In this document: positions 15,782 through 24,404 of the stretch, one piece after another
Layout: each line of letters starts with the position of its first letter
Numbering within the stretch: the first letter of the stretch is position 1
Source: a virus
DNA: 29,537 bases
Virus record (IMG/VR): IMGVR_UViG_3300009164_000254
Coordinates: 1-29,537 of that record
Strand: one strand, 5' to 3'
The notes under the pieces: generated by a model
What the model saw: the letters and a program-made list of their open reading frames with translations, nothing else
Database searches by the model: none
What the model was told of the DNA's origin: nothing
Made by a program: the position numbers and the translations under genes

Positions 15782-15789
15782 GATAAATA
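15782..15789 (+). promoter_or_regulatory. T4-type late promoter box GATAAATA
   Basis: The same GATAAATA octamer as at 11883 ends 6 nt before the ATG at 15796. The predicted start site is at or one base before the A of the ATG. Confidence 0.65.
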
Positions 15790-15795
15790 TTTAAT

Positions 15796-16497
15796 ATGAA
15801 CTTTTTGGAATTTGCTCAACCCGTCGAACAACACAATCGACTTAATCCTAAACTGTGGGACAACCACCAACTGCGCCCTGAAGTTAGTCTAGCTCTAGTA
15901 CGCATTGCCCGCGACTTTAAAGAGTTTATCGAGGTGCCGTTTAAAGTTGTAGACATACAAATCACCGGCGGTAATGCTAACTTTACCTATACTGATCATT
16001 CGGACATAGATCTACACCTAATCGCTGACTTTGATTCAGTGAGCTGTGATCGTGAGGCCGCAGAGTTATTCGACAGCAAACGATTATTGTATAAACGCGA
16101 ATATCACGTCGATGTCCGCGGGATTCCTGTAGAAGTTTATGTAGAAAATAGCCGACACCCTGCCGTCAGTGCAGGCGCATACAGTTTACTCAAAGATGCG
16201 TGGGTTCGTCAACCCAATGCCGATGTTCCGGACTACGATCGAGAACAAGTAGAAAAATGGGTAGATATATGGCATAAGGTTATCAAAACGGCCACAAAGA
16301 CTGGCGATCTTAGTGCTTGCCGTACCGCCCTAAAAATGCTACGTCACTATCGGAAATTAGGTTTAAAGACCGAACATGGCGAATTTAGTATACCAAATCT
16401 AGTTTACAAGAGTCTACGCAATGATGAAACTATCAAGGGAATACAGACCTTAATAGATCAACTTCATAGTCAAGATCTTAGTTTAAATCAAGGATAA
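15796..16497 (+). CDS. nucleotidyltransferase-fold protein
   Basis: This is a 233-residue protein. ITGGNANFTYTDHSDIDLHL (56-75) fits the Pol-beta/MNT-type nucleotidyltransferase signature, G-G/S followed by D-x-D (D70, D72). A third acidic residue could come from VEVYVE (112-117). The C-terminal half is helical and basic (ALKMLRHYRKLGLKT). The substrate is unknown; related folds modify tRNA, proteins or antibiotics. It has a late box directly upstream with no room for a normal leader. It runs into the convergent GNAT-like gene with a 10-nt overlap. Confidence 0.7.
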   Translation: MNFLEFAQPVEQHNRLNPKLWDNHQLRPEVSLALVRIARDFKEFIEVPFKVVDIQITGGNANFTYTDHSDIDLHLIADFDSVSCDREAAELFDSKRLLYKREYHVDVRGIPVEVYVENSRHPAVSAGAYSLLKDAWVRQPNADVPDYDREQVEKWVDIWHKVIKTATKTGDLSACRTALKMLRHYRKLGLKTEHGEFSIPNLVYKSLRNDETIKGIQTLIDQLHSQDLSLNQG

Positions 16498-16925
16498 AGA
16501 TAGTTAACTGTGTCCGAGTTAACACGGAATACATCAGCACCATTTTTCAAATGAAAACGTCTAGCCATTTCAGTGGGTGGACTTAGTGTGACATAGGTAT
16601 TAATGTTTTTGCGATTGTCCTTGATCCAAGCACATGCGGCAATAATTAAATCTCGGCCAGCTCCAGTCTGATAACTCCAAATAGTATAAAACACGGCAAC
16701 ATTAGGAACTACAGCAGGCTCACGGAACAAGGCATAGACGTCCTCAGGTATACTTTCACGATAAGCCGCACAGACTGCCGCAATGGGTCTAGCTTCACTG
16801 TCTAATAATACAAATATCTCAGCGGAATTGCTAACACGGAACTCCAGGGGAATTTCAGGCCGTACTGGATCATCCGCAACGACACGACAAAGCTCGTCGT
16901 CGATATTTGTTATGCGGTGTAGCAA
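16488..16925 (-). CDS. GNAT-like N-acetyltransferase
   Basis: This encodes 145 residues from a TTG start with a strong AGGAG ribosome site 8 nt upstream (rendered on the minus strand near 16933-16937). The segment TIWSYQTGAGRDLIIAACAWIKDN fits the acetyl-CoA binding beta4-alpha3 region (Q-x-x-G-x-G/A), followed by VTLSPPTEMARRFHLKNGA like the GNAT C-terminal motif. The acceptor substrate is unknown. GNAT-like genes of this size occur in T4-like cyanophages. It converges on the nucleotidyltransferase gene. Confidence 0.7.
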   Translation of the reverse strand: MLHRITNIDDELCRVVADDPVRPEIPLEFRVSNSAEIFVLLDSEARPIAAVCAAYRESIPEDVYALFREPAVVPNVAVFYTIWSYQTGAGRDLIIAACAWIKDNRKNINTYVTLSPPTEMARRFHLKNGADVFRVNSDTVNYLYP

Positions 16926-17003
16926 GTTTTAACTCCTGGGGATGTGTACTCTTAATTATCATTAGTGTTAATTTTTCAGGCTCAAATAGAGCTAAGTAGT
17001 ATT

Positions 17004-17705
17004 ATGACAGAAATTTTATACATCTTAATAATGACGCACATTACCATAGTCTGCGTCACACTGTACCTACACAGAAACCAAGCACATAGAGGAATAGAAT
17101 TCCACCCGATTTTAAGCCACTTTATGCGGTTGTGGTTATGGTTAACTACCGGAATGACTACCAAGCAATGGGTAGCAGTGCATCGTAAACATCATCAAAA
17201 TACCGATGTTGAAGGCGACCCACATAGCCCGCACGTATTTGGTATTTGGAATTTGGTGTTTGGCGGTGTCAAATATTATAATCAAGCGGGCAGTGATGCG
17301 ACTATGATTATGAAATACGGAATGGGTACTCCCAAAGACTGGATTGAACGTAAACTTTATACACCTCATCATCGACTGGGCATTCTTGTAATGTTGGCCA
17401 TAGACTTACTATTGTTTGGTTGGTGGGGTTTTATAGTGTGGGGTGTTCAGATGATTTGGATACCATTCTGGGCCGCTGGATTCATCAACGGCATTGGACA
17501 CTGGTGGGGATATCGCAATGGCGAAACCAAAGACCATAGTCGCAATGTAAGTCCATGGGGTATCTTAATTGGAGGCGAAGAACTGCACAACAATCACCAC
17601 TTAGATCCAGCCAACCCTAAACTAAGTCGTAGGTGGTTTGAGTTTGACATCGGCTGGATGTGGTTTAAAATCTTTGAGTTTGTTAAACTTGCTAAGGTAA
17701 GATAA
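17004..17705 (+). CDS. membrane fatty-acid desaturase
   Basis: This encodes 233 residues from ATG 17004; the longer GTG start at 16965 adds an unlikely extension. The three histidine boxes of the acyl-CoA/acyl-lipid desaturase family are present: HRNQAH (23-28), HRKHH (60-64) and HNNHH (195-199), plus H166 in GIGHWWGY. Hydrophobic segments near 2-20, 38-50 and 125-165 would span the membrane. It introduces a double bond into acyl chains using a di-iron centre. As a phage auxiliary gene it may alter membrane fluidity during infection. A box-like CTCAAATA at 16981 is too far off consensus to call. Confidence 0.88.
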   Translation: MTEILYILIMTHITIVCVTLYLHRNQAHRGIEFHPILSHFMRLWLWLTTGMTTKQWVAVHRKHHQNTDVEGDPHSPHVFGIWNLVFGGVKYYNQAGSDATMIMKYGMGTPKDWIERKLYTPHHRLGILVMLAIDLLLFGWWGFIVWGVQMIWIPFWAAGFINGIGHWWGYRNGETKDHSRNVSPWGILIGGEELHNNHHLDPANPKLSRRWFEFDIGWMWFKIFEFVKLAKVR

Positions 17706-17879
17706 TTACTCTTCGGGTCGTTTAAACCAATAGTATTTTTGTAATTCCCGCATTACAGCATCTACTGTCATGTTATTTTCTTTGGCGGCAAGTTCTGCAA
17801 AGTCCATATAACGATATAGATAATCGTTGTTGCTTTGTTGCCATTGTTGATACATTGATTGTAGATGATGTTCCCACAT
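17706..17879 (-). CDS. 57-residue protein, unknown (last gene of envelope operon)
   Basis: This short frame (MWEHHLQSMYQQWQQ... ending KRPEE) begins 2 nt after the stop of the coiled-coil gene and ends directly next to the desaturase stop, filling the gap exactly. It is rich in Gln, Tyr and Trp near the start and helical throughout (YMDFAELAAKENN). Overlap-style spacing and lack of any other gene on either strand here argue that it is real. The function is unknown. Confidence 0.65.
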   Translation of the reverse strand: MWEHHLQSMYQQWQQSNNDYLYRYMDFAELAAKENNMTVDAVMRELQKYYWFKRPEE

Positions 17880-17881
17880 AA

Positions 17882-18502
17882 TTATTTGTTGGCCAATGGA
17901 TTATCAATAGCTTTTTGTATTTTGCTGTCAACTTCTCGCTTTAGTGTCTCAACTTCTCTATTGATTTCTCTGCGAGCCGCAGTGAATTCTGAATTAATTT
18001 CTTTGCGTGTTGCTTCCATGTCTCTGCGAATTGCATTGGCTTCGTTTCTTGCTCGCTCTAGATCTTCACGCACCGCCTTACGCATGTCACGCATTTCACT
18101 TTCAGTTTCACGCTGTGCAGTTTTTACACTACGTTCAACTTGTTCAGTGACAGTCTCATTACGGCGAATATCATTCTTTAAGTCTGTTTTAATATCGCGG
18201 GTATAGTCTGCACCTTTTTGACTATTTTCTTCGATAACTGCTAGTCGCTTGTCAAATCCACTCAAATCAGGTGCCGCGTATTCGGCAATCTTTTTCTTCA
18301 TGCCCACATAGTCTTTGTAAACTTCAAAGGTTCCATATAGTCCGCCCAGTACTGAACTTACAATAGTAAATGCTACCATTAGTTTAGCAGGGGTAAATTC
18401 ATAGCCACCAATACTGATAACAGTATCCTTGCTGGCATACTTCTTTGCGGCTGCCTCTAGTTCATCAACTTTGGCGTTTACGTCTTTAATTTCTTCTGTC
18501 AT
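17882..18502 (-). CDS. membrane-anchored coiled-coil protein
   Basis: This is a 206-residue protein with an AGGAG ribosome site on the minus strand just upstream of the ATG. A short hydrophilic N-terminus is followed by one membrane helix (about 41-57, LMVAFTIVSSVLGGLYG) and then a long charged coiled coil of about 130 residues, dense in Arg, Glu and Lys. The topology (cytoplasmic or periplasmic coil) cannot be set from sequence. It belongs to the operon of secreted and membrane proteins, so it may anchor or organise them at the inner membrane; that is inference. Confidence 0.8.
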   Translation of the reverse strand: MTEEIKDVNAKVDELEAAAKKYASKDTVISIGGYEFTPAKLMVAFTIVSSVLGGLYGTFEVYKDYVGMKKKIAEYAAPDLSGFDKRLAVIEENSQKGADYTRDIKTDLKNDIRRNETVTEQVERSVKTAQRETESEMRDMRKAVREDLERARNEANAIRRDMEATRKEINSEFTAARREINREVETLKREVDSKIQKAIDNPLANK

Positions 18503-18517
18503 TTTAGTCTCCTAATA

Positions 18518-18706
18518 TTAATTCCAGCCCTGTGGCCATTTTGAATTGTTTGTTTTTTGATCAGCTAACATTCTGATCCATTCTTTCTTTACTGATAGAT
18601 CATGCTTCATGCGAGCTAGTTGATCCATTGAGTTATCGTAATAAAATATATAGTAAAATGGAATACCAAATCCAACGCCTAACATAAAATAAGCAATATA
18701 ATCCAT
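18518..18706 (-). CDS. 62-residue single-pass membrane protein
   Basis: A hydrophobic N-terminal segment (about 4-23, IAYFMLGVGFGIPFYYIFYY) is followed by a charged 40-residue tail (ARMKHDLSVKKEWIRMLADQ). A TAGGAAA ribosome site lies 6 nt before its ATG, and it starts 1 nt after the large secreted-protein gene ends. It could be a holin/antiholin-like or scaffold membrane protein, but nothing specific supports a lysis role. Confidence 0.7.
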   Translation of the reverse strand: MDYIAYFMLGVGFGIPFYYIFYYDNSMDQLARMKHDLSVKKEWIRMLADQKTNNSKWPQGWN

Positions 18707-18707
18707 A

Positions 18708-21305
18708 TTAATTTCCTAACTTAAACTGCTGATCAACCATTTCTTGATGTAGTCTGTCGCTACCCCTAGTTAACCCTCGCAACACTCGCTCATTGTCAAC
18801 TGTACGTTGATTCTTATAAACTTCTTTTGGCTCATAGAATGATGCATCTTTTAATATAAATGAATAAGCATTAAATCCAGTAGGTACGCTGGCTATTGAA
18901 GCAATATCAACGCTACCTGCTAGTTCATTTGGCAATACATTTCTATTGACTGCGCTAGTCTGAGATTGTATGTTTTCCTGCATCATTTCAAACTTCTGTT
19001 GCATCATCATTTCTGATAAAGGATTACCAGGTTTACCTATACCTCCAAAACTAGCCACCTGTACCTGCGGTGTTTCGACGTCCATGGCACGTTCTTGTAA
19101 TCGTGGTTGATATACCGGTGCAGATTGTGTAGGTGCTGGTGTCATACTAGACAAATTAATTGAACCTAAAGGATTATAGATAAATGGATTACGACCAATA
19201 GTCAACCCTGTACCACTGCTGGCCTGCTGTTGTGTCTCCACAGGCGCCGGAGGAGTAGGCTTTAACATAGTGACTGCGGTTGATTGTGTGTCTTGTTGCT
19301 GTACCGTTGCAGAATATGTCAATGAGTTAGTTTGAATAGGTTGCGTACTATTAACAGTTGGTTGTACCTGTTGTATTTCTTTTTGTAGGGGAGCAGGTGC
19401 TTGAACAAAATTTACAGACGATTGATTCTGTACCTGTTGTACTTCTTGCTGTGTTTGTTGAGTCTGTTGTACATATCTACCAGATTGTTGCTGTTGTGAG
19501 CCGGACTGCTGTTGTTGAGGACTTTGACTTGCTTGTACTAAGGATTGAACACTGGCCTGTGTTGACTGACTGGAAAACTGTGCGGCTGCTGTGGCACTAT
19601 TAGCACTCATATCTTGATTCATAGCAACTGCGGCATTACTTGTGGCAGTTGCACTTTGTACAGCATTGTCAAATGCCTTGGCGGCTTGTTGTACGGCCGC
19701 GGCCTGTACTGCTTGGTCTTTGGCCTGTGCTGATTTAACCACACTCATTGCTAGTTTACTAGGACCGCCGCCTCCACCACTACCGCCCTGTTGTGGTCCA
19801 GAACTCTGTTGTGGTGCACTGGCTGTTGCTGTCTGTGGAGGACCGCCAGCAGGTTGTGGACTTGTAGGTGCAGGGCCTGCTTGAGTTGGACTTGGCTGTG
19901 ACGGATTGTCTTGTGCTACACCAGGATTCTGATTTTGATCTTGCGCAGGACTTGGACTTGATTGAGCCTGTTGAGGTGAAGATTGTGCTTGGGCAGGACT
20001 AGATTGTGCCTGTGCAGGAGCTGCCTCAGCAGGTGACATTTGTGCTGTTGCCGGTGCAGGAGCTGCCGGAGCACTTGCACTAGCAACTGTTGATCCTAAT
20101 AACATATTTTTAGCATAAGCAACTGCATATCCAGAACAGGATGCATTGTATAAAGGATTAGTGACACACGGGTCAGCAGTATAAATTAACGTTGCTGAAA
20201 AATTACCTATAGATGATCCTGTACCCGATGTACTACCTGTTAAACTAAATCTACCTAATCCAGTTTGATTCAAACTGGTTGGCAACAAATACTTTCCACT
20301 AACCGATCCACTATCGCCATCTCCAGTCAATGCATAGCTCTTTGAAAATATTGTACCGGAATCGCTGCCAGTTAGTCGTGCAGTGGCATTTACCTGTGCA
20401 GGAATATTCATATACCAACTGCACGAACCGTCTTGATTAGTGGCTGTACATCCTGACCAGCTTTGACCAATGTTGTAATCAAATCCATAATTAATGCCGT
20501 GTACTGTGGCGCCAATGCCGCCATTTTTTAATGCTGTATTAATAGCCACTGATTGAGTTAGGGCATTTGACCATACACTAGAGTTGAAAACATTATTACC
20601 GGTTGTGACTGTATTAAATCCGGCACAACTAGGGCTGTAAGCAATATTGGTAGCACACGGATCAACACGATACTTTAAACTAAAACTGACATTATAAATT
20701 TCCGGGCCATATGGACCAACCCAAAAATTATTATCTCGACCAACAAACCCGACTTGTGCATTACTGTAGTTTGAAGCCGCTACGGGATTGGCAAATGTTT
20801 CACTGAAGTTAAAGTTAGTCCAGTTGTATTTTCTGTTTGTTTCATTTGTATAATCATACGTTGCGGCAACACCGCCGGCGGCATTGTAAAACTTAACGTA
20901 AGCACTTAGGTAATCCTGAGCTCCGTTGTCCCAACCATTACCATTTTTAGCACGAAATCCAAAATTGAATCCGCTGAGTTGTACACCGGCACCGCCTGCT
21001 TCCAGTGCTCGGTTTATATTGACAATTTGATTTAAGTCTGTAGTACCATAACTGAAATTTATTACACCGTAGCCGTTGGCATTGACTCGTGGCTGAGATC
21101 CACAATAGCCTGGGTCGCCACCACGCCAGCAGGTCAGTGATCCACCGAACTGTCCTACGTTATTCCAATTGCCGGTCGTGGTAGTGGGTGTGCCGGTAAA
21201 GTTTATCAAATTACCAGTAGTCGAATCTACCTGAGCATTACTTGAAAGCGTTATGAATGAGAACGCCAAGCAAAGCGCCAAAGCCAACTTTCTTATAAGT
21301 TTCAT
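18708..21305 (-). CDS. large secreted low-complexity protein with duplicated N-terminal module
   Basis: This is an 865-residue protein. The signal peptide (1-24, MKLIRK then a hydrophobic core, SSNAQ) predicts export. Two tandem modules of about 160 residues follow, each with IN-x-AL-x-x-GG (97-104 and 255-262), an aromatic GF/YGF strand, and an end DPC...SC/AGF (215 and 378). Residues 405-660 are Ala/Pro/Ser/Gln-rich low complexity. The last 100 are globular-looking (GFNAYSFILKDASFYEPKEVYK, then LRGLTRGSDRLHQEMV). Its start lies inside the preceding gene (68-nt overlap). It may be a secreted filament or surface protein; the function is unknown. Confidence 0.82.
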   Translation of the reverse strand: MKLIRKLALALCLAFSFITLSSNAQVDSTTGNLINFTGTPTTTTGNWNNVGQFGGSLTCWRGGDPGYCGSQPRVNANGYGVINFSYGTTDLNQIVNINRALEAGGAGVQLSGFNFGFRAKNGNGWDNGAQDYLSAYVKFYNAAGGVAATYDYTNETNRKYNWTNFNFSETFANPVAASNYSNAQVGFVGRDNNFWVGPYGPEIYNVSFSLKYRVDPCATNIAYSPSCAGFNTVTTGNNVFNSSVWSNALTQSVAINTALKNGGIGATVHGINYGFDYNIGQSWSGCTATNQDGSCSWYMNIPAQVNATARLTGSDSGTIFSKSYALTGDGDSGSVSGKYLLPTSLNQTGLGRFSLTGSTSGTGSSIGNFSATLIYTADPCVTNPLYNASCSGYAVAYAKNMLLGSTVASASAPAAPAPATAQMSPAEAAPAQAQSSPAQAQSSPQQAQSSPSPAQDQNQNPGVAQDNPSQPSPTQAGPAPTSPQPAGGPPQTATASAPQQSSGPQQGGSGGGGGPSKLAMSVVKSAQAKDQAVQAAAVQQAAKAFDNAVQSATATSNAAVAMNQDMSANSATAAAQFSSQSTQASVQSLVQASQSPQQQQSGSQQQQSGRYVQQTQQTQQEVQQVQNQSSVNFVQAPAPLQKEIQQVQPTVNSTQPIQTNSLTYSATVQQQDTQSTAVTMLKPTPPAPVETQQQASSGTGLTIGRNPFIYNPLGSINLSSMTPAPTQSAPVYQPRLQERAMDVETPQVQVASFGGIGKPGNPLSEMMMQQKFEMMQENIQSQTSAVNRNVLPNELAGSVDIASIASVPTGFNAYSFILKDASFYEPKEVYKNQRTVDNERVLRGLTRGSDRLHQEMVDQQFKLGN

Positions 21306-22746
21306 CTAGTTTTTCCTCTTCTACTTTTGGTAGTTTTTCTGGATTAGATTCCCATGCAGCCTTGGCCTGCTCGCCAATCTTACCTTCGTATGGACAAGGT
21401 GTGCCTGCTGCCAACATAGCATCAAATACCCTACGGTCTTGACACATAGTGGCCACAGCGGCAACTTTCATACCCATATCGTAGAGTGTTTTAGATAACT
21501 TTAATCGTTCACAATTCATATCACGTGTAGTGCTACCTGCCCCAACACCAAAGATCTGTGTTTGTACTGATCCGCTGGTGCCTGTTGAGCATAGGTCAGC
21601 ATTGCCACCACTCATCATAGCAGGAGCAACTGCTGTTGGAGGAGGTTGAATAACTTTTTGTGTTATAACAGTTTCATTGATATTTCTATTTGTCATTTCA
21701 CCGCTATTAATGTTTTGGTTAACGTTGGTATTAGCATTAGTGCTGGTACTAGAGTTGGTATTATTGTTGTTGTTAGTCATTGTACCCGTGTTGGTATTTT
21801 GATTAATGTTGGTCATTGTACCTGAATTAATATTGTTATTGGTATTTGTACTATTTGTTGTAGCCGTGGTATTGTTGATATTACGGTTGGTCATGTCACC
21901 AGTGTTAACATTGTTATTAGTGTTGGTACTTGTACTGGTATTGACATTGTTATTATTGTTGGTCATTGTACCATACTGATAGTTTGTGTTGGTACTGGTA
22001 GACGTATTAACGTTGTTATTGTTGTTGGTATTAACGCTGGTACTAGAGCTGGTACTGGCATTGTTGTTGTTATAGGTCATTGTACCACTGTTAACATTGT
22101 TGTTGTTATTGGTATTTGTGCTGGAACTAGTGCTGGTGTTAACGTTATTGTTGTTAAATGTCTGTGTACCACTATTGATGTTGTTATTAGTATTAACATT
22201 GGTACTGGCGCTAGTACTGGCATTGTTGTTGTTATAGGTCATTGTGCCTGTGTTAACATTATTATTAGTATTAACTGATGTACTGCTACTAGTACTGGTA
22301 TTAACATTGTTATTGTTGTTGGTCATTGTACCACTATTGACATTGTTGTTGTTGAATGTCTGTGTACCACTGTTAACATTGTTGTTGTTATTGGTATAGG
22401 TCACTGAGCCGCTCATAACATTGTTGTTGTTATTGTTGTTGGTCAAGGTGCCCGAATTAACATTGTTGTTGTTATTGGTATTAGTCGTGCCACCGGTCAA
22501 ATTGGTGTTGTTATTTGTGGTCACTGTACCCGAATTGACATTGTTGGTATTGATCGTACTAACACTGTTAGAGGTACTGTTGGTATCAACCAAGGATTTG
22601 CTGTCATAGCCCCCTTGATTGATCACTGTGGCAGTGCCTGTAGCGGTGCCACCACTGGATCCTGATGTACCTGTGGTAGTGGTCTGTGCCAGGGCCGCGC
22701 CAGATAACACCAAGGCAGCAACGACAGAGATAATTTTCTTGAACAT
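21238..22746 (-). CDS. secreted Asn-rich repeat protein
   Basis: This is a 502-residue protein with a signal peptide (1-20, MFKKIISVVAALVLSGAALA). Residues 58-357 are almost only N, T, S, V, G and M in short repeats such as NNNNVNSGTMT. The C-terminal 135 residues are globular, with four Cys (DLC, MNC, MCQD, TPCPYEG), an ERLKLSKTLYDMGMKVAAVATMC helix region and a final hydrophobic helix (GFGALLGVLI). It has an AGGAGGA ribosome site 4 nt before ATG. The repeat could form a beta-solenoid or amyloid-like fibre, or be disordered; the role is unknown. It heads the envelope operon. Confidence 0.82.
   Translation of the reverse strand: MFKKIISVVAALVLSGAALAQTTTTGTSGSSGGTATGTATVINQGGYDSKSLVDTNSTSNSVSTINTNNVNSGTVTTNNNTNLTGGTTNTNNNNNVNSGTLTNNNNNNNVMSGSVTYTNNNNNVNSGTQTFNNNNVNSGTMTNNNNNVNTSTSSSTSVNTNNNVNTGTMTYNNNNASTSASTNVNTNNNINSGTQTFNNNNVNTSTSSSTNTNNNNNVNSGTMTYNNNNASTSSSTSVNTNNNNNVNTSTSTNTNYQYGTMTNNNNNVNTSTSTNTNNNVNTGDMTNRNINNTTATTNSTNTNNNINSGTMTNINQNTNTGTMTNNNNNTNSSTSTNANTNVNQNINSGEMTNRNINETVITQKVIQPPPTAVAPAMMSGGNADLCSTGTSGSVQTQIFGVGAGSTTRDMNCERLKLSKTLYDMGMKVAAVATMCQDRRVFDAMLAAGTPCPYEGKIGEQAKAAWESNPEKLPKVEEEKLDETYKKVGFGALLGVLIHNAFK
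21676..22575 (-). repeat. degenerate AAC/AAT-rich coding repeat array
   Basis: This is the DNA of the Asn-rich region, approximate bounds. On the plus strand it reads as runs of GTT/ATT/TTG with recurring GTCATTGTACC-type blocks that mark SGTMT units. Unit lengths vary from about 10 to 25 codons, and codons are mixed rather than identical, so it is an old, selected coding repeat rather than recent slippage. Confidence 0.85.
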
Positions 22747-22778
22747 AGATTCCTCCTAGAATAGAGACTTTACATCAA

Positions 22779-22786
22779 TATTTAAA
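22779..22786 (-). promoter_or_regulatory. possible late promoter box TTTAAATA
   Basis: Minus-strand TTTAAATA lies 32 nt before the ATG of the Asn-rich gene, leaving space for its AGGAGGA ribosome site. It differs from TATAAATA at one position. Unlike the other late boxes it would give a normal leader. Confidence 0.45.
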
Positions 22787-22810: not shown

Positions 22811-23419
22811 CTAGTTTATCAAGCCAAACAGAATTCTTTTGGCATCATCAAAATAAACACCTCCCGTGTCCCGACAATGCAGTGTCAGTACCACACGAGT
22901 ATTATCCGACTGAGTGTTGTCAAAATCGTGGAATATATCAGTGTTGAACAGGATACACTCGTTGGCCTGAGCGGTCATTGTTTTAAGGGGAACATGATGT
23001 TGTTTGACAAAACCCCGGCACTCTCGAGAAGTATTAGAGGGCAAATTATCAATAGGGTAGTGTTTGAGATCCTCGTCGCTGTACCAACTGGTTTCACACA
23101 GCTGATCCAATATGGTCACAGTGTAGTTTATGCTGATGCGATTATCAAGTCCATCCTTGTGCGCCCTATAGTAGCGGCCACCTGCGGTTATAAACAAGCT
23201 GACTCGATCACGCTGGAAGTCCAAAACTCCAGAAGCAGGCACCCGACTCAGCAGTTGATCAGCATCAGCTAGGGCCAACTTGTGATGTACAAACTGGCCC
23301 GGGGAGATCTGTGTATCGGGTATACGACTGCGACAAAAATCAATGACGTCCTCAATGCCTGGGTGGGTAAATCGAATGTAGTAGGGACTAGAGTCTTCTA
23401 TGATAGTATACTGGCTCAT
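22811..23419 (-). CDS. 2OG-Fe(II) oxygenase superfamily protein
   Basis: This is a 202-residue protein. The iron triad is plausible: H87 and D89 in YYRAHKDG, and distal H164 in DIFHDFDN. R175 (NTRVVLTL) is placed to bind 2-oxoglutarate. The strand RISINYTVTI after HxD and the LFNTDIFHDFDN block are typical of phage 2OG oxygenases and prolyl-hydroxylase relatives. The substrate (protein, nucleic acid or small molecule) is unknown. Late box GATAAATA stands 5 nt before its ATG. It is transcribed separately from the SGNH gene upstream. Confidence 0.72.
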   Translation of the reverse strand: MSQYTIIEDSSPYYIRFTHPGIEDVIDFCRSRIPDTQISPGQFVHHKLALADADQLLSRVPASGVLDFQRDRVSLFITAGGRYYRAHKDGLDNRISINYTVTILDQLCETSWYSDEDLKHYPIDNLPSNTSRECRGFVKQHHVPLKTMTAQANECILFNTDIFHDFDNTQSDNTRVVLTLHCRDTGGVYFDDAKRILFGLIN

Positions 23420-23424
23420 GGAGA

Positions 23425-23432
23425 TATTTATC
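23425..23432 (-). promoter_or_regulatory. T4-type late promoter box GATAAATA
   Basis: On the minus strand GATAAATA is followed by a 5-nt gap (TCTCC) and then the ATG at 23419. The predicted start site is the A of the ATG. Confidence 0.65.
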
Positions 23433-23503: not shown

Positions 23504-23523
23504 AATTAACCACAGAGTTAATT
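23504..23523 (-). terminator. AT-rich hairpin at end of SGNH gene
   Basis: A perfect 7-bp inverted repeat AATTAAC/GTTAATT with a 6-nt loop overlaps the SGNH stop codon. The stem is AT-rich and no clean U-tract follows at once (GATGGGAAAAATTC), so terminator strength is doubtful. The remaining gap to 23433 holds an AT-rich stretch and a GCGAAGC direct repeat near 23459-23476. Confidence 0.35.
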
Positions 23524-24391
23524 ATCTATTAACCAGAGTTAACTCAGTATACTCATCTTGTAGGTTCAATCGCTGTGTCCAGGGCATGAAAGTATAGGCC
23601 TCACCCATGAAGTGTATCTGCGTGAGATCCGCAACCTGATACTTGATGCCAGGATTCTTGACCCAGGTGTCATAGTTGCCCTGATCTCTGGTCATGAGTT
23701 TAGATGTTATGCCAAACTGATGTTTGTGCATCTGAGTAAAGTTTTCGGAGTTTGAAACTCGAACTGTTTCTCCACCAATACAGGGTTCTATCAACTCTGA
23801 AAAGAATCTTCCATACTGGTCACCTCGATAGTGTATACCATCTGTAGGTGTATGTCCTAGGGTAGTATAAGTACCAGAATCAACATAGTCGTAGAAAGCT
23901 GAAGCAAAGCGTATTGGTCCCTGAGGCTCCAAAAAGCCCACAAACTCACGATTGAACAAATGTATGATTCTATTGCGTGTGGCGATATCCCCGGCAAATG
24001 GATAGGTATGATTATAGGCACCTTGACGAGCTTCTGCGGCTGGTGGACTGGCCCATAATGTAGCTGAATTAAGCTCATACAAGTTAACAGCATGTCCTAT
24101 GGCACGATACAGAGCCAGTGCAGATGACTGTACATACTGCTCGGGTGGTAGATTGTATCTGGGTAGTTGTCGCCAATAGTGCGCACGTATGTCAATTTCA
24201 CCCAAACAAACTACTAGATCCATGCCCTTGCAATTGGTCAACCATGGATCTAACTTGGTCCATAATTCACTGCCAAAATTGACAAACTCACGAGCAGTGG
24301 GTACAATGCCACCACTGTTAAAGTACTGTGCTCCGGCAACGTGACTTAGTTGCTCACCATGACTGTCGCCAATGACTAGAAAATTACTCAT
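23522..24391 (-). CDS. SGNH/GDSL-type hydrolase
   Basis: This is a 289-residue protein. Block I is IGDSH (7-11) with the nucleophile S10. A CLGEIDIRAH segment (62-71) matches the block seen in phage SGNH enzymes. Block V TDGIHY supplies D185 and H188 of the catalytic triad. SGNH enzymes act as esterases, acyl- or deacetylases, often on cell-surface sugars. The C-terminal 90 residues (after IEPCIGG) form an extra domain with IHFMGEAYTFMPW. A late box lies 5 nt before the ATG. A virion or surface-glycan role is inference. Confidence 0.75.
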   Translation of the reverse strand: MSNFLVIGDSHGEQLSHVAGAQYFNSGGIVPTAREFVNFGSELWTKLDPWLTNCKGMDLVVCLGEIDIRAHYWRQLPRYNLPPEQYVQSSALALYRAIGHAVNLYELNSATLWASPPAAEARQGAYNHTYPFAGDIATRNRIIHLFNREFVGFLEPQGPIRFASAFYDYVDSGTYTTLGHTPTDGIHYRGDQYGRFFSELIEPCIGGETVRVSNSENFTQMHKHQFGITSKLMTRDQGNYDTWVKNPGIKYQVADLTQIHFMGEAYTFMPWTQRLNLQDEYTELTLVNR

Positions 24392-24396
24392 ACAGA

Positions 24397-24404
24397 TATT
24401 TATG
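24397..24404 (-). promoter_or_regulatory. T4-type late promoter box CATAAATA
   Basis: On the minus strand CATAAATA is followed by 5 nt (TCTGT) and the ATG at 24391, the same geometry as the other late boxes. Confidence 0.6.

Follow-up and report, generated by a model that had tools for sequence, protein, structure and literature searches.

Two-component spanins such as lambda Rz/Rz1 and T4 PseT.3/PseT.2 combine a coiled-coil protein, held in the inner membrane by an N-terminal helix, with an exported lipoprotein partner which is encoded next to it. Their genes overlap and are expressed late, the proteins have conserved cysteines, and endolysin or holin-like genes sometimes lie beside them. 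The T4 holin T, which has class III holin topology, is a protein of about 200 residues with one transmembrane helix near residue 40 and a C-terminal periplasmic domain. The i-spanin has been defined as a protein with an N-terminal transmembrane helix and a periplasmic, usually coiled-coil, domain (PMC6139136). In addition, curli operons occur in some pelagiphages (PMC9599517; PMC9004378).

The locus described here encodes three proteins, P1, P2 and P4, which share the above traits of the spanins: an inner-membrane coiled coil with an N-terminal helix, exported partners encoded next to it, overlapping genes with a late-type motif, conserved cysteines and, in some phages, endolysin or holin-like neighbors. 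In contrast to the spanins, the trio comprises three proteins instead of two, the exported partners have SPase-I-type signals and are not lipoproteins, P2 is several times larger and contains glycan-binding-like modules, and there is no match at the family level. P4 also has the size of holin T, about 200 residues, and a single helix near residue 40, but it differs in being a coiled coil with an NPL tail that is accompanied by two exported proteins. We tentatively propose that P1, P2 and P4 form an envelope-spanning, spanin-like complex acting at lysis, without classing it as a spanin. No published account of a P1-P2-P4 module was found.

The window, i.e. the whole stretch of DNA that was analyzed, is the entire IMG/VR record of an aquatic virus, 29,537 bp long, and contains a T4-type replication block (a gp32-like protein, a RecA/UvsX-like ATPase, helicases and a primase-like gene). 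The original prediction had described five consecutive minus-strand genes as a late, envelope-directed operon, and all five open reading frames are indeed present (Table 1). Its description of the products was likewise borne out: P1, the supposed secreted Asn-rich repeat protein, has a signal peptide and an Asn/Thr repeat, P2 has the duplicated Cys module and the Gln/Pro/Ser tract ascribed to it, and both supposed membrane proteins have a candidate helix, which is marginal in P3 (mean hydropathy 1.49, compared with 1.70 for the helix of P4), P4 being the long coiled coil.

Table 1. Features of the P1-P5 locus (window coordinates, unless a locus is named)
Feature	Coordinates	Strand	Description
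TTTAAATA	22779..22786	(-)	read directly; ~33 nt before P1 start codon
P1 ribosome-binding site AGGAGG	22752..22757	(-)	read directly from sequence
P1	21238-22746	(-)	502 aa; signal peptide, Asn/Thr-rich repeat, four-Cys core, hydrophobic C-terminal helix
P1 Asn-rich repeat tract, ~residues 70-360	21667..22539	(-)	beta strands predicted, low confidence
P1 core domain, ~residues 377-470	21337..21618	(-)	four conserved Cys are invariant alignment columns
P1/P2 overlap, 68 nt	21238..21305	(-)	P1 3' end lies over codons of the P2 signal peptide (coordinates)
P2	18708-21305	(-)	865 aa; signal peptide, two beta-sandwiches, Pro/Gln/Ser linker, helix 518-577, conserved C-terminus
P2 module 1, residues 27-214	20664..21227	(-)	carbohydrate-binding-like beta-sandwich
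P2 module 2, residues 233-377	20175..20609	(-)	beta-sandwich, AlphaFold block pLDDT 89-98
P2 C-terminal conserved block, residues 780-865	18711..18968	(-)	holds most invariant residues of P2
P3	18518-18706	(-)	62 aa; one marginal transmembrane helix; optional
P4	17882-18502	(-)	206 aa; one transmembrane helix (41-59), long coiled coil, C-terminal NPLANK
P5	17706-17879	(-)	57 aa; small, soluble-looking
P1-core small lipoproteins	L280:886-1101, L188:8606-8866, L189:1725-1940		directly upstream of P1; unannotated or hypothetical

A fatty-acid desaturase gene (window 16965-17705, plus strand; PF00487, 62.7 bits) converges on the cassette, and among 110 non-redundant loci 11 have a desaturase relative no more than 5 kb from P4. 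The minus-strand gene at 16488-16925 encodes 145 residues with a match to the malonyl-CoA decarboxylase C-terminal domain (29.1 bits), the product probably being a GNAT-fold acyltransferase. An AlgH-like DUF179 protein (72.2 bits) is encoded by the phage at 15208-15765 on the minus strand.

To collect homologous loci, IMG/VR was searched with P2, P4 and P1 as queries, which gave 24, at least 80 and at least 79 loci, respectively. Homologues of each of the three proteins are present in more than 160 IMG/VR loci (P1 in 167), genes having been called mechanically on contigs many of which are fragments. In all 94 non-redundant loci that hold all three genes these follow each other in the order P1-P2-P4 on one strand, a count that measures conserved order and not prevalence since the loci were collected with the module's own proteins. 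Overlaps of 62–74 nt between P1 and P2 predominate in these 94 loci, with 65 nt in 35 and 68 nt in 17 of them. The co-occurrence which had been expected for all five genes was thus found for P1, P2 and P4 but not for the remaining two: P3 occurs in 35 of the 167 loci carrying P4, and P5, which has neither signal nor helix, has homologues in 8 loci, where they lie on the opposite strand upstream of P1, placing it outside the conserved unit.

The part of P1 which pelagiphages and roseophages have in common with it is the P1 core, found in the Pelagibacter phages HTVC115P, HTVC023P, HTVC202P, HTVC033P, Baldr and the T4-like Mosig, in the Roseobacter phages CRP-207 and CRP-810 and in three uncultured phage records. 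In these phages the core is followed by a membrane coiled coil ending in NPL, usually after an intervening large exported protein, and a wider set collected with the P1 core shows this coiled coil in all 62 loci whose sequence continues downstream for more than 3 kb. The SAR11 and Roseobacter isolates with the trio belong to different types, and all of these isolate genes are annotated as hypothetical or are misannotated. Many ocean and lake viruses that are unrelated to each other carry the trio with its gene order unchanged. The original prediction, which regarded such an operon as unusual for T4 relatives, was drawn too narrowly: the module also occurs in small pelagiphages, in roseophages and on contigs of up to 524 kb. 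Among GTDB genome contigs P1 was found in only 7 MAG loci, which argues for a phage-specific family.

In one lineage (L079:5648-7950; also L078, L080, L085 and L094) P2 is replaced by a short relative which shares the P2 C-terminus (E 9e-11 in a set of nine sequences), and three further proteins with signal-like N-termini lie between P1 and P4. One of these extra proteins resembles a spore-coat-U-type pilin by eye, with no family match, and tblastn searches of phage records with two secreted genes of an alternative lineage gave no match. A small Cys-rich protein with the motif (F/Y)RYPCQ(D/N)PxNW recurs downstream of P4 (L139, L145, L149, L172 and others; L280:2834-3016), 6 of its 11 members having a lipobox.

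All 64 non-redundant homologues of P1 and 94 of the 98 of P2 begin in the manner of a signal peptide, and almost every one has an AxA-like cleavage site and lacks a lipobox; in the window, the hydrophobic segment of P1 ends in ALA-Q. A lipobox was found in none of 55 P2 homologues and in one doubtful case among 53 P1 homologues. Judged by these N-termini, P1 and P2 very probably leave the cytoplasm. The claim that the products are aimed at or across the inner membrane is therefore upheld, the signal peptides being conserved in the homologues and the P1 core keeping its four cysteines, which fit an oxidizing compartment.

Residues 23-360 of P1 contain 122 Asn and 79 Thr among 338 positions, and in the DNA a 62-nt repeat recurs in 18 register copies, often spaced 36 or 42 nt. 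The length of the Asn-rich tract varies among homologues (133–539 aa for P1 as a whole across the scored set), and in some lineages, where P1 has 176–199 aa, it is missing, so that it cannot be an essential part. The model places the 12-residue Asn/Thr repeat in stacked beta strands (pLDDT about 58–73 over residues 140-230) and predicts a helical core. P1 matches phrog_20531, a family of unknown function (E 1.7e-4); nothing was found in Pfam up to E 0.1, curlin included, nor by a sequence search of solved structures with the core, and a fold search with the low-confidence model gave nothing at E < 1.

The two modules of P2, each closed by DPCxxNxxYxxxCxGY, are modeled by AlphaFold as beta-sandwiches with a pLDDT mostly above 85. 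Among solved structures module 1 best matches the Fbs1 sugar-binding domain, with Z 12.9 and an rmsd of 3.4 for 157 residues at 12% identity, CBM16 reaches Z 9.8, and the top Foldseek matches of the modules are tandem CBM proteins. Module 1 has the beta-sandwich of the Fbs1/F-box-associated domains and of CBM22/CBM16, with a short common stretch near FWxGxYG, whereas host and context of those proteins are unrelated. For module 1, a profile also hits FBXO6 (E 0.0034) along a stretch of 27 residues, and one of 55 P2 members gives a weak match to the FBA family (E 0.099). The modules are thus lectin-like in their predicted fold and may bind sugars, a shared fold alone being no proof of this. The linker is very variable, and with 460–909 aa in the scored set P2 is, to our knowledge, far larger than known spanins. 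The C-terminal block gave a low pLDDT when modeled alone. Searches of phage records by tblastn with P2 or its C-terminus gave no match, and the C-termini of the freshwater and pelagiphage types show weak similarity (best E about 0.001 in the nine-sequence set); homology of P2 between these types is suggested mainly by position and architecture.

P4 and its distant relatives are built alike: a single transmembrane helix near the N-terminus, then a coiled coil, and NPL in the tail. This tail is kept in 11 of 11 P4-type proteins, although their identity to the first of the set is otherwise 19–76%, and one additional relative ends in NPM. The P4 profile detects CRP-810_gp51 (L188:10210-10632; E 5e-6) and CRP-207_gp73 (L189:3292-3873; E 2e-7), both of which end in NPL, suggesting that their annotation as 'lysozyme' is wrong.

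The motif TTTAAATA upstream of P1 differs by one mismatch from TATAAATA, the T4 late promoter consensus, and TAAATA is the core of T4-type late promoters. In 51 of 63 homologous loci TAAATA lies no more than 110 nt ahead of P1, compared with 11 on the opposite strand and with a mean of 2.9 and a maximum of 9 in random windows of the same loci (500 trials), in agreement with the late expression originally claimed. As no such motif stands before P2 or P4 in the homologous loci, P1-P2-P4 are probably transcribed as a single late unit starting at P1.

In the window, ATAAATA also stands directly upstream of three other start codons (23425-23431 and 24397-24403 on the minus strand, 15783-15789 on the plus strand), which suggests that the genes behind these copies (22811-23419, 23522-24391 and 15796-16497) are further late genes.

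The proposed role in lysis is suggested by several of these features, namely the exported-type N-termini kept by nearly all P1 and P2 homologues, the resemblance of P4 in its architecture to the i-spanins (PMC6139136) and the late-type motif upstream of P1 only. Muralytic and holin-like neighbors in several small phages point in the same direction: in HTVC023P an M15 peptidase gene (PF08291) directly follows P4, in HTVC033P an amidase and a holin-like gene lie within about 1.3 kb before P1, and in ctXG6705 a lysozyme follows P4. Near the trio in 60 small-phage loci, members of the M15 peptidase family were found in 14, an amidase in 6 and a glucosaminidase in 6. In addition, CRP-810, CRP-207 and ct7L0027 encode, ahead of P1, a short lipobox protein that contains the P1 core (E 3e-5, 1.5e-4 and 0.009 among 30,412 ORFs), and in CRP-810 and ct7L0027 its gene overlaps an upstream gene for a coiled coil with an N-terminal helix, as in two-component spanins. 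Finally, the hosts of all isolates are Gram-negative, and no Rz-family spanin (PF03245) scored above the cut-off in any of 29 trio-carrying genomes.

The lysis reading is weakened by other results. No lipoprotein partner occurs regularly near the trio, one being present in the 2.5 kb behind P4 in only 8 of 110 loci and nearby in 6 of 60 loci in a second count, and P4-type proteins have no significant match to a PHROG spanin family (E 0.08). A canonical two-component spanin was therefore rejected, a lipobox being absent in general and a spanin family match lacking. In the large genomes the GH19 endolysin candidate comes closest in one genome, at about 8.5 kb, while its usual distance is tens to hundreds of kb, and no annotated endolysin gene adjoins the trio in Mosig, HTVC202P or Baldr; a Peptidase S11 lies within 6 kb of the trio in 3 of 11 large genomes, which is too few to build on. 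The charges flanking the helix of P4 do not settle its orientation.

If P1, P2 and P4 do act at lysis, they would be produced late from one promoter, and P1 and P2 would pass through Sec to the periplasm or the outer membrane. The N-terminal helix of P4 would anchor it in the inner membrane, with the coiled coil presumably spanning the periplasm. The two glycan-binding-like modules of P2 might hold an envelope glycan, peptidoglycan or LPS, while the conserved C-terminus of P2 and the Cys core of P1 might connect the exported side to the NPL tip of P4. After the endolysin has cut the wall, the complex could then tear or fuse the outer membrane in the fashion of a spanin.

The main rival of this lysis reading is receptor masking or superinfection exclusion, which we regard as unlikely: the lectin-like modules of P2 would coat surface glycans and block the adsorption of other phages or, in a variant, P2 would keep released progeny off debris, with P1 as a spacer and P4 as an inner-membrane anchor. 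The tandem carbohydrate-binding-like folds of P2 would suit such a function, as would the very variable P1 length and P2 linker, which are expected of surface-exposed proteins, the lipoprotein form of the P1 core in roseophages and the fact that in large genomes the trio is late and independent of the endolysin. However, exclusion genes are usually early while the motif of the trio is of the late type, masking would not require a coiled coil in the inner membrane whose C-terminus is invariant, and the position beside muralytic genes in several small phages would be left unexplained.

An extracellular or periplasmic fiber, in which the Asn-rich repeat of P1 forms a beta-solenoid or an amyloid-like fiber that decorates or aggregates infected cells, appears improbable. 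The repeat is predicted as stacked beta strands and recalls the curlin repeats, and some pelagiphages carry curli operons (CsgG, CsgF, CsgA/B), which like the trio encode exported proteins (PMC9599517; PMC9004378). The trio differs from these in having a membrane coiled coil in every case, no CsgG and no curlin match: CsgG was found in none of 18 large records and none of 11 isolate-type phage records carrying the trio, although the control search detected it in E. coli and three others. Curli or type VIII secretion was rejected on the basis of these 29 genomes and the curlin result. For a fiber in general, the model confidence is low, and some homologues retain the core while having a short repeat or none.

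That P1 and P2 are virion or tail-fiber proteins with misleading N-terminal hydrophobic segments is very improbable, even though the viral-structure matches of the P2 modules include minor tail and fiber proteins (a common fold) and HTVC023P and CRP-810 have structural genes close to the trio, because exported-type N-termini are kept in nearly all homologues and Sec substrates are unavailable to tailed phages, which assemble in the cytoplasm, and also because P4 is a membrane protein and the Cys pattern fits an oxidizing compartment. Among the three roles originally considered, envelope remodeling for release fits best, though as a proposal, and a fiber and exclusion rank lower.

SAR11 and Roseobacter phages are among the most abundant viruses in the sea, and we know of no mechanism by which they open the outer membrane. 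The trio is a concrete candidate for this step, being common to small pelagiphages, a T4-like pelagimyophage and very large lake-type phages. A spanin-like role would assign functions to several families annotated as hypothetical and would correct two 'lysozyme' labels. It is conceivable, if rather doubtful, that a new three-component, non-lipidated envelope-disruption machine, consisting of a glycan-binding P2, the Cys core of P1 and the NPL-tipped coiled coil of P4, replaces Rz/Rz1-type spanins in many aquatic phages, and if so its users would include SAR11 phages and phages with very large genomes.
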